A stretch of 64,000 nucleotides of DNA from Methylobacterium sp. (lineage in GTDB: Bacteria > Pseudomonadota > Alphaproteobacteria > Rhizobiales > Beijerinckiaceae): the NCBI GenBank assembly GCA_020253445.1, contig JADCBP010000004.1, positions 124,001 to 188,000 on the forward strand, written 5' to 3'. Under the pieces are notes generated by a model that saw only the letters and a list, made by a program, of their open reading frames with translations, did no database searches and was not told the DNA's origin. The translations under genes and the position numbers were made by a program. Below, one piece after another: positions 43,622 through 51,206 of this stretch (position 1 is its first letter; the number at the start of each line of letters is the position of its first letter).

Positions 43622-44218
43622 ATGCGCATCGCGTTGATCGACAATTACGACAGCTTCACCTTCAACGTCGTGCACGCGCTCGGACGCGAGGGCGCAAAGG
43701 TCGAGGTTTTTCGCAATGATGCCATGAGCGCGGAGGAACTCCTTGCGCTGGGCCATGAGGCGATTGTCATCTCCCCCGGCCCCTGCACGCCTTCGGAAGC
43801 AGGGATTTCGGTTGAGACCATCGAGAAGGCCAATGGCAAGGTGCCGCTGCTTGGCGTCTGCCTCGGTCATCAGGCGATCGGGCAGGCCTTCGGCGGGAAT
43901 GTCATCCGCGCCTATCCCGTGCACGGCAAGGTTTCGACGATCACGCATGATGGCAGGGGCCTGTTCCGCGGCATGAACCAGGGCCTCACGGTCACGCGCT
44001 ATCATTCGCTGGTGGTGGAGCGCGCGAGCTTCCCCGCCTGCCTCGTGCCCACGGCCGAGAGCGAGGATGGCCTCGTGATGGCGCTCCAGCATCGCGATTG
44101 CCCGACCTTCGGCGTCCAGTTCCACCCCGAGAGCATCGCGACCGAGGGCGGGCAGCAGATTTTCCGCAATTTCCTGGATATGGCGCGTGAATTCCGCGCG
44201 CATCGCCAGGCCGCGTGA
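43622..44218 (+). CDS. trpG: Anthranilate synthase component II, glutamine amidotransferase
   Basis: 198-residue class I amidotransferase. It begins [20 protein letters not shown], with an oxyanion loop [13 protein letters not shown], the nucleophile Cys in [16 protein letters not shown] near residue 80, and His-Glu in [12 protein letters not shown] near 170. The start at 43622 is set by homology; ATG 43610 would add four residues. It lies 19 bases after trpE. The stop overlaps an in-frame GTG of trpD. Confidence 0.96.
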
Positions 44219-44229
44219 CGAGTATCCCG

Positions 44230-45243
44230 ATGGAAGCCTTCAAGCCCCTGATCGCCAAGGCAGCCGCCGGCCTGCCCCTCTCCCGCGAGGAAGCCTCGCT
44301 CGCCTTCGCGCAGATGCTCTCGGGCGAGGTGACGCCGGCGCAGATGGCAGGCTTCCTGATGGCCTTGCGTGTTCGCGGCGAAAGCGTCGAGGAAATCACC
44401 GGCGCGGTGAGTGCCATGCGCGACCGCATGGTGAGGGTCGAGGCCCCGGCCGGCGCGATCGACGTGGTGGGCACGGGCGGCGATGCCTCGGGCTCGTGGA
44501 ATGTCTCGACGCTCGCCGGGTTGATCGTCGCGGCCTGCGGCGTGCCGGTCGCCAAGCATGGCAACCGCGCGGCCTCCTCGAAATCCGGCGCGGCGGATGT
44601 GCTTCAGGCGCTGGGTGTGAAGATCGGGCAATCCCCGGATATCGTGGCGAAAATCCTCACGGAAACCGGCTTTGCCTTCATGCTCGCGCCGGCGCATCAC
44701 CCCGCCATGCGCAATGTCGCGCCGGTGCGCACCGAACTCGGCACGCGCACGATGTTCAACATCCTCGGCCCGCTCTCGAACCCCGCGGGCGTGAAGCGCA
44801 TCCTGCTCGGCGTGTTCTCCGCGAGCTGGCTGGAGCCCATCGCCGAGACCCTTCGCGATCTCGGCACCGAGCGCGCCTGGATCGTCCATGGTTCGGATGG
44901 CCTCGACGAGATGACCACCACCGGCCCGACCCATGTGGTGGAACTCGCGAATGGCCGGCTTCGTCGCTTCGAGGTCACGCCCGAGGAAGCGGGACTTCCC
45001 CGCTCCGAGCCCGAGGCGCTGAAGGGCGGCGAGCCCGGCCGGAACGCGGCGGCTTTGCGCGATGTCGTCTCCGGCAAGCCCGGGGCTTATCGCGATATCG
45101 CGATTTTCAACGCGGCGGGCGTTCTGGTGGTGGCGGGCAAGGCCGCGACCCTGAAGGACGGTGCCGGGATGGCCGCCGAGGCGATCGATTCCGGCAAGGT
45201 CTCCGCCCTGCTCGACCGCGTGATCGCGGTTTCGAACGCGTGA
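44230..45243 (+). CDS. trpD: Anthranilate phosphoribosyltransferase
   Basis: Joins anthranilate to phosphoribosyl pyrophosphate. It is 337 residues with the PRPP-binding [19 protein letters not shown] near residue 80, [17 protein letters not shown] and [14 protein letters not shown] 44230 gives the usual family length; a GTG at 44215 overlapping the trpG stop would add five residues. An 11-bp tandem array begins seven bases after the stop and runs into the trpC start. Confidence 0.95.
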
Positions 45244-45249
45244 GGGTCG

Positions 45250-45326
45250 CCAGAAGCACGCAAGAAGCGCCCAAGAAGTGTCAGATGAGGGGCACATGAG
45301 GGGCACATGAGGGGCATATGAGCGAC
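45250..45326 (+). repeat. 11-bp tandem array containing the trpC start codon
   Basis: Seven 11-bp units in exact register start at 45250, 45261, 45272, 45283, 45294, 45305 and 45316. The first three read like CCAAGAAGCGC variants, and the last four ACATGAGGGGC or close variants. From 45285 each unit carries its own ATG and GAGGGG. The reading frames from ATGs at 45285, 45296 and 45307 encode MRGT, MRGT and MRGI, and each stop overlaps the next ATG as ATGA. The last one ends on the trpC start at 45318. Confidence 0.93.
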
Positions 45327-46130
45327 ATTCTCCGCACCATCGAGGCGACGAAGCGCGAGGAAATCGCCGCCGCCAGGGCGCGCCTTCCGCTGGCGGAGCT
45401 TCGCGCCCGCGCCGAGAAGAAGCGTGCTCCGCGCGGGTTTCTCGCGGCTCTGGAAAAGAAGGTTCGGGCGGGGCAATTCGCGCTCATCGCCGAGATCAAG
45501 AAAGCGAGCCCCTCCAAGGGCCTGATCCGCGCGGATTTCGATCCGCCGGCCCTGGCGCGCGCCTATGAAGCCGGCGGCGCGGCCTGCCTCTCGATCCTTA
45601 CGGACCGGAAATATTTCAAGGGTGCCGCGAGCCACCTCACCTCGGCGCGCGCGGCGGTGAGCCTGCCCGTGATCCGCAAGGATTTCCTGATCGACCCCTA
45701 TCAGGTGTTCGAGGCCCGCGCGATGGGCGCGGATTGCATCCTGGTGATCATGGCGAGCGTCGATGACGCGCTCGCGGCCGATCTCGTCGCCACGGCCTCG
45801 GCGCTCGGCATGGACAGCCTCATCGAGGTGCATGACGAGACCGAACTGTCGCGCGCGCTCAGGCTGCCCTCGCCTCTTCTCGGCATCAACAACCGCGACC
45901 TGAAGACCTTCCATGTCGATCTCGCGGTTTCCGAGCGGCTGGCGAAGCGCGTTCCGAAGGACAGGCTGCTCGTGGGCGAAAGCGGCATCTTCACGCAGGC
46001 GGATTGCCAGCGCCTTCGGGAAAGCGGCATCTCGACCTTCCTGGTGGGCGAAAGCCTGATGCGGCAGGCGGATGTGGAAGCCGCGACGCGCACGCTTCTC
46101 GGCCTGAAGCCTGCCCTGAAGGTCGCGTGA
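45318..46130 (+). CDS. trpC: Indole-3-glycerol phosphate synthase
   Basis: Fourth step of tryptophan synthesis from chorismate. It is 270 residues: TIM barrel with [21 protein letters not shown] near residue 55, [43 protein letters not shown] (in parts), [15 protein letters not shown] and the phosphate-binding VGESGIFT. The start codon is the last unit of an 11-bp tandem array. Its stop overlaps the moaC ATG as TGATG. Confidence 0.96.
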
Positions 46131-51031: not shown

Positions 51032-51102
51032 GCTAGATCGCGCGGCAAAGCCGGGCAATGCCCGCCGAACTCCGATTTTCCAAGGTGAAAGCCGCTTTTC
51101 CC

Positions 51103-51206
51103 ATGTCTGGTCCCCATGTCTGGTCCCCATGTCATGTCCCCATATCTGGTCCCCATGTATGATTTTTGTGTCTGATCCCCATGTCTGATCCCCATGTCTG
51201 ATCCCA
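51103..51206 (+). repeat. 13-bp tandem array containing the gltX start codon
   Basis: Eight 13-bp units in exact register start at 51103, 51116, 51129, 51142, 51155, 51168, 51181 and 51194; the eighth is the gltX start itself. The consensus is ATGTCTGATCCCC, with GGT for GAT in early units; unit four begins ATA, unit six GTG and unit five is degenerate (GATTTTT). The ATG at 51181 and the GTG at 51168 would encode MSDPHV then stop, overlapping the next unit's start. In-frame unit 51155 stops at 51173, so no upstream unit can extend GltX. Confidence 0.93.

Follow-up and report, generated by a model that had tools for sequence, protein, structure and literature searches.

Several kinds of repeat or short reading frame at gene starts have been described. 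Mycobacterial interspersed repetitive units (MIRUs), the closest described kind to the array reported below, are apparently mobile elements that insert at start codons and carry an internal ORF coupled to the following gene at -4 nt, and their insertion likely has little effect on expression (PMC12548453, a 2025 review). Termination-reinitiation takes place at 4-nt ATGA stop/start overlaps (PMC10666635, PMC6728339), and in E. coli a spacing of 38 nt lowered reinitiation by 80-90% in two of three reporter pairs and abolished it in the third (PMC10666635). In Beggiatoaceae, TAACTGA direct repeats abut start codons at many genes, and a translation role has been proposed for them (PMC4679880). Moreover, a synthetic short upstream frame with an internal Shine-Dalgarno (SD) sequence raised expression up to 20-fold (PMC13255528).

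The window analysed here, a stretch of 64,000 nucleotides from a Methylobacterium genome (G000), carries a tandem array between trpD and trpC on its forward strand, to which all coordinates at this locus refer. The trpD gene (44215..45243, 342 codons, stop TGA at 45241-45243) encodes anthranilate phosphoribosyltransferase, as its ORF and the Pfam families Glycos_transf_3 (7.5e-88) and Glycos_trans_3N indicate, while trpC (45318..46130; Pfam IGPS, 1e-93), with a start region conserved in relatives, encodes indole-3-glycerol phosphate synthase; the gap between the two is 74 bases. At the trpD end lies a leftover copy of the ancestral junction (45241..45251), in which the trpD TGA overlaps an SD-like GAGGG followed by TCGCC, as assigned by eye alignment with TGAGGGACGCATGAGC of G004 and G010. 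It is followed by three 11-bp AGAAG units (45252..45284), recognized by self-match at lag 11, which start at 45252, 45263 and 45274 (AGAAGCACGCA, AGAAGCGCCCA and AGAAGTGTCAG) and hold neither an ATG nor a strong SD. Three near-identical ATG units with the consensus ATGAGGGGCAY occupy 45285-45317, starting at 45285, 45296 and 45307 (ATGAGGGGCAC, ATGAGGGGCAC and ATGAGGGGCAT), and the trpC start at 45318 (ATGAGCGACAT) closes seven 11-bp steps from 45252. The first-pass annotation had described seven 11-bp units in register; the seven in-register steps to trpC hold, but the units form two sub-arrays, three of AGAAG type and then those of ATG type, within a common period.

The ATG units, read directly, give three 4-codon frames: mini-ORF 1 (45285..45299, M R G T stop), mini-ORF 2 (45296..45310, M R G T stop, with the SD GAGGGG at 45287-45292) and mini-ORF 3 (45307..45321, M R G I stop, with its SD at 45298-45303). 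Mini-ORFs 1 and 2 share the ATGA at 45296-45299, and mini-ORF 3 shares 45307-45310 with mini-ORF 2 and 45318-45321 with trpC, giving three ATGA stop/start overlaps in succession, the last on the trpC start. This chain, and its production by a repeat whose length is not a multiple of three, had been recognized at first pass. Each unit had also been credited with its own GAGGGG and ATG; both are present, but the GAGGGG sits 3' of its own ATG and so is positioned for the next one. Because each GAGGGG serves the following ATG, the SD of the first rung (45285) is weak, with a best duplex of -2.0 kcal/mol compared with -8.0 for rung 2 (a value that includes pairs beyond the SD), -6.9 for rung 3 and -6.9 for trpC. 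The last GAGGGG (45309..45314) is the SD of trpC itself and is placed as the GAGGG is in G004 and G010. The anti-SD tail used for these energies is an assumed one, because the host's own 16S rRNA gene was not found: an Rfam model search of G000 gave 0 of 1, despite a completeness rating of 100%. G000 is perhaps an assembled metagenome bin.

The trpC ladder is real and beyond chance. At lag 11, 27 successive positions match with no more than one mismatch, whereas the longest such run in 300 Markov-generated versions of the whole window was 18, whichever lag from 8 to 30 was used; TRF reports 3.5 copies (96%, score 69). Within the AGAAG segment, 20 of 30 positions are self-matches at lag 11, a figure that none of 5000 shuffles attained, and 17 of 33 positions agree with the ancestral junction unit, which was reached by 232 of 5000. 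To judge from these matches, the segment is a true 11-bp array with only a weak likeness to the ancestral unit, and it may have another origin. Two other roles for the mini-frames were rejected. They hold no Trp codon and lie between trpD and trpC, which speaks against an attenuator or leader peptide, and an in-frame upstream extension of trpC fails as the in-frame ATG at 45285 meets a stop at 45297-45299.

Compared with the described systems, the ladder is like a MIRU in being a short repeat at a gene start whose ORF overlaps the gene by -4, here at the MRGI stop/trpC ATGA (45318-45321). Unlike MIRUs, which PMC12548453 presents as apparently mobile and which lie at several sites of a genome, the 11-bp-spaced tandem pattern occurs in its own genome only at trpC. 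Its unit, again unlike a MIRU, is built from parts of the junction itself. MIRU units measure some tens of bases or more, whereas the trpC unit is 11 bp. The ATGA overlaps are those of termination-reinitiation junctions, but at trpC there are three in a row, and the pairs studied in PMC10666635 join two genes directly, whereas the ladder interposes several mini-frames. With the TAACTGA repeats the ladder shares tandem units that abut start codons; TAACTGA (PMC4679880) is a single invariant heptamer that lacks an ATG and has little of an SD about it, while each ladder has its own unit per locus with an SD and a start, ATGAGGGGCAY at trpC. The rungs also resemble the synthetic booster of PMC13255528, a short frame with an internal SD that ends at or near the next start, although the booster is engineered, single and longer, and its expression was measured. 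The ancestral TGAGGG between trpD and trpC is of the ordinary kind in which a stop overlaps the SD of the next gene, without repetition (PMC2784483). Among the matches listed, mostly from outside subscription journals, no title or abstract opening described overlapping mini-frames arranged in tandem on this small, local scale. The earlier remark that no such case is described at trpC thus needs qualifying, since the arrangement also occurs at other genes (below) and coupled-repeat MIRUs are described (PMC12548453).

The trpD-trpC junction was checked at 112 loci, among which at least 13 contigs appear twice; two were the window's own, two (L020 and L023) had no trpD upstream, and the ladder was absent at all other 108. 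A comparison of unit number among relatives had been proposed, and the congeners proved to have a normal trpD-trpC gap: 16 other genomes of the genus were available, one of which (G005) has no trpC match, and the ladder was seen in 0 of the 15 with a readable junction. Absence of the array in relatives is one of the marks of a bacterial VNTR or minisatellite. In the nearest relatives, G004 and G010, whose trpC is 95 and 96% identical (over 97 residues in G010), the junction reads TGAGGGACGC-ATGAGC (TGA-GGGACGC-ATGAGC) with a gap of 7, and other congeners have gaps of 4, 1, -1 or -4, except that G006 and G016 carry inserts of a different kind. The gaps of these two (L013/L037 and L015/L049) are 88 and 82 nt and share a hairpin-like motif, and in G006 the first trpC codons occur twice. 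As well, ATGAGG twice plus ATGA at 11-bp spacing was found in 1 of 199 genomes, only at trpC, and a 551-base query of the array with its flanks matched its own genome once. Among the genomes examined, the trpC ladder is therefore present only in its own genome; its origin is ordinary and its form unusual, with parallels elsewhere.

The window is longer than the G004 junction by 67 bases, i.e., 6 x 11 + 1, and the clean units contain the junction's elements, namely a trpD-type stop TGA, the SD GAGGG, a spacer and the A of the next ATG. Since the unit carries the junction's parts and the lineage is rich in arrays, the ladder is read as a local tandem duplication, which agrees with the origin proposed at first pass, and we consider it rather probable that the trpD-trpC junction underwent a tandem expansion specific to this lineage. 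The ancestral junction holds TGAG twice, 11 bp apart, and replication slippage between these two words might have grown the ladder. With the junction's elements in each clean unit, every added 11 bp brings one more 4-codon frame, whose stop forms an ATGA with the next start. Variation in copy number had been suggested as well; it is seen between species at another gene pair, rsmI-yraN, while at trpC there is only one ancestral junction to set against several units.

The abundance of tandem arrays was sampled with TRF (score of at least 50), counting arrays whose period is not a multiple of three. G000 has 20 in 464 kb. The G004 samples gave 11 in 380 kb and 1 in 34 kb, and a further 12 in 360 kb taken from contig starts, where arrays may be overrepresented; the counts are 3 in 400 kb for G003 and 4 in 400 kb for G001. 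Arrays lying within 15 bases of a called start number 7 of 62 in G000, 8 of 71 in G004, 2 of 20 in G003 and 2 of 20 in G001, by a simple gene-call model of our own that missed the gltX start. There is no sign in these four genomes that arrays are targeted to starts, the share being about 1 in 9-10 in all; with shares so alike, arrays at starts seem to be a by-product of an overall surplus of arrays. At 51100-51205 the window contains a further start array, of 8.2 13-bp units (CCCATGTCTGATC), which ends in the start of gltX (51194; Pfam tRNA-synt_1c). Its unit is single or absent in 8 of 9 relatives, the ninth, G010, being cut at a contig end, and has no SD, unlike that of trpC. The same genome has a second closed ladder (G000:C2:73794-73839; L268 1795-1840) of period 14, with ATGAAGGAGRAGGY units and SD duplexes of -9.5 to -12.8 kcal/mol, which precedes a transporter permease and is a single unit in G003. 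A 14-bp start array of ATGGCAGGAG type was observed at apparently the same gene in G000 (L130 14425-14451) and G004 (L142 18788-18824), so some start arrays may predate the species split. Elsewhere in G000, tandem copies of 47 bp (4.4 copies, L124 13791-13997) and 43 bp (3.6 copies, L121 19744-19898), with matches of 98-99%, resemble intrinsic terminators with a hairpin and a T run.

The trpD stop lies 41 nt upstream of the first rung, and given the effect of 38 nt in PMC10666635, the hand-over from trpD to the ladder is probably weak; in the earlier proposal that ribosomes could be handed down the ladder, a supply from trpD is thus doubtful. The trpC start probably relies on its own SD. The strength of this SD is kept relative to G004, -6.9 against -6.5 kcal/mol (the best duplex of G004/G010, internal loops included), whereas for trpC of G007 this measure (+0.3) indicates no SD, and SD strength at trpC is therefore not conserved across the genus. 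RNA folding gave no clear contrast, the start being unpaired at 0.57 in the window and at 0.31-0.64 in five relatives. We infer that trpC would be translated mainly from 45318 via the last GAGGGG, as before the expansion, and that the AGAAG segment would loosen its coupling to trpD. Ribosomes starting on rung 2 or 3 would stop on the next start and could restart there; these rungs might occasionally be translated and pass ribosomes on, with little net effect. Because terminating ribosomes can restart, the cost of extra rungs would be small, and the rungs may give a slight local supply of ribosomes.

Closed ladders were also found at other alphaproteobacterial genes, mostly with period 14 or 17 among the matches listed, by scanning overlapping sets of 249, 385 and 397 genomes (handles to G908) for ATGARGG twice plus ATGA. 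Counting equally spaced arrays of period 10-17 not divisible by three, with units at least 70% alike and G000 omitted, gave at least 19 with a period of residue 2 modulo 3 against at least 10 of residue 1 among the matches listed (one-sided 0.068). This excess is only suggestive, and it went, as lower bounds among the matches listed, from 15 against 4 after two scans to 19 against 10 after three. Dropping the likeness rule gives at least 20 against at least 11, adding G139 (59% alike) and G335 (62%). The recount used 68 of the listed strings, with repeats of the same array and plainly unequal spacings dropped; G409 (alternating 17/14 units of TGATG type), G142 and G212 (periods 25 and 26, outside the range) and G073 (second spacing different) were left out. 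Three of the 10 residue-1 arrays come from one genome, G052, which is 88% complete. Residue-0 arrays are commoner, at least 41 in the same range with G000 not included, and are indistinguishable here from coding repeats.

Loci were read for the 29 counted arrays, for G139 (59% alike) and for both ladders of G000. Outside G000 and with G139 counted, 12 of 20 residue-2 arrays end on the start of an ORF that has at least 80 codons or runs off the contig, and 10 of these 12 genes have a Pfam family (G004, G146, G162, G185, G117, G414, G440, G462, G600 and G766); the G065 gene has none, and G139 lay outside the Pfam scan. In three further arrays (G551, G506 and G816) an ORF starts 11-42 nt further on, and five show no gene start, one of them at a contig end. 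An upstream ORF of at least 100 codons stops on the chain's own ATGA in 6 of the 12 cases (7 with G139). Pfam families are present on both sides at cheW-cheR (G185, 3 rungs), hemC-hemD (G462, 2), rsmI-yraN (G414, 2), a permease pair (G117, 2) and an ABC-transporter pair (G146, 1), while in G065 Pfam names only the upstream side (enoyl-CoA hydratase family). Among the 10 residue-1 arrays, two end on a gene start (G468 and G368), four have an ORF starting one unit earlier, and four have none. In G468, two 13-bp steps link a histidine kinase gene with that of a sigma-54-type response regulator, and the first frame of the array still closes on the gene start because 2 x 13 = 26 is 2 modulo 3. As read from its sequence, the dut ladder of G004 (Pfam dUTPase; L206 19221-19274) is the closest parallel to trpC, with the same architecture: the stop TGA of a 411-codon ORF, presumably coaBC-like by position, opens three 17-bp ATGA steps. 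ORF length alone is weak evidence in such GC-rich DNA; the trpC chain, for example, is also where a spurious ORF of 406 codons ends. At the two-gene bridges serial reinitiation is a reasonable reading, because the chain there is unbroken.

Related species show such ladders at different sizes. In the genus of G414, rsmI-yraN has 0 rungs in G910, 1 in G510, 1 in G909 and 2 in G414 (loci L315, L317, L318 and L319, with 2, 1, 0 and 1 rungs), in 14-bp steps and with the upstream stop on the first ATGA; G910 is a plain ATGA overlap, G287 and G912 are plain overlaps, and G911 has a TGATG overlap. At hemC-hemD there are 2 rungs of 17 bp in G462, again with the upstream stop on the first ATGA, whereas its sister G626 has none and shows a plain ATGA overlap. 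For these comparisons, Pfam identified the upstream gene in G414 and G462 only. The comparisons show ladders that grow through tandem duplication at overlaps while the chain stays closed. When an ATGA overlap is duplicated in this way, all stop/start pairs remain closed, which fits persistence through surviving coupling.

Several readings of the trpC ladder can be weighed against these results. It is doubtful that the ladder is a serial reinitiation device, loaded at its early rungs and handing ribosomes down repeatedly, in which unit number sets trpC output under selection. The closed frames with an SD before rungs 2 and 3, the two-gene closed ladders at cheW-cheR, hemC-hemD, rsmI-yraN and others, the surplus of residue-2 periods among the matches listed and the synthetic frame of PMC13255528 are all in keeping with such a device; yet rung 1 has a weak SD and lies 41 nt from the trpD stop, the synthetic frames, whose effect grew with length, are longer than these frames of 4 codons, the period excess is only suggestive, and no relative read has a ladder at trpC. 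A meaningless minisatellite, in which duplication struck as it does in other noncoding DNA of the clade and the rungs stay untranslated, has several observations on its side: the high array density in G000 and G004, the gltX array with its period of 13 and no SD, the proportionality of start-touching arrays to all arrays, and the 4 of 10 residue-1 and 5 of 20 residue-2 arrays outside G000 with no gene start. We consider it somewhat unlikely, as the SD energies of rungs 2 and 3 resemble that of trpC itself and the chains in the two-gene bridges are closed. A wrong unit number in a draft genome, such as this one of 18 contigs and 3.28 Mb, is highly improbable: the array is 77 bp, differences between units place most copies, and similar ladders grow stepwise in other species. 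Common sequencing reads are also longer than 77 bp.

Beyond the expansion at trpC that we favour, we tentatively propose that closed micro-ladders are recurrent in operons, where units of length 2 modulo 3 may keep coupling via serial reinitiation on 4-6-codon frames and unit number may tune the downstream gene, trpC being a case with a decayed upstream end. Serial reinitiation, if true, would provide a natural test of how many stop/start steps one ribosome manages, and the 0-, 1- and 2-rung natural forms of rsmI-yraN in sister species are a ready comparison set. It would also offer a route for tandem duplications to persist within operons, in which the remainder of the unit length on division by 3 determines whether coupling can be preserved. 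Even with silent rungs, the locus is a record of a clade rich in intergenic tandem arrays, some of them reaching gene starts.
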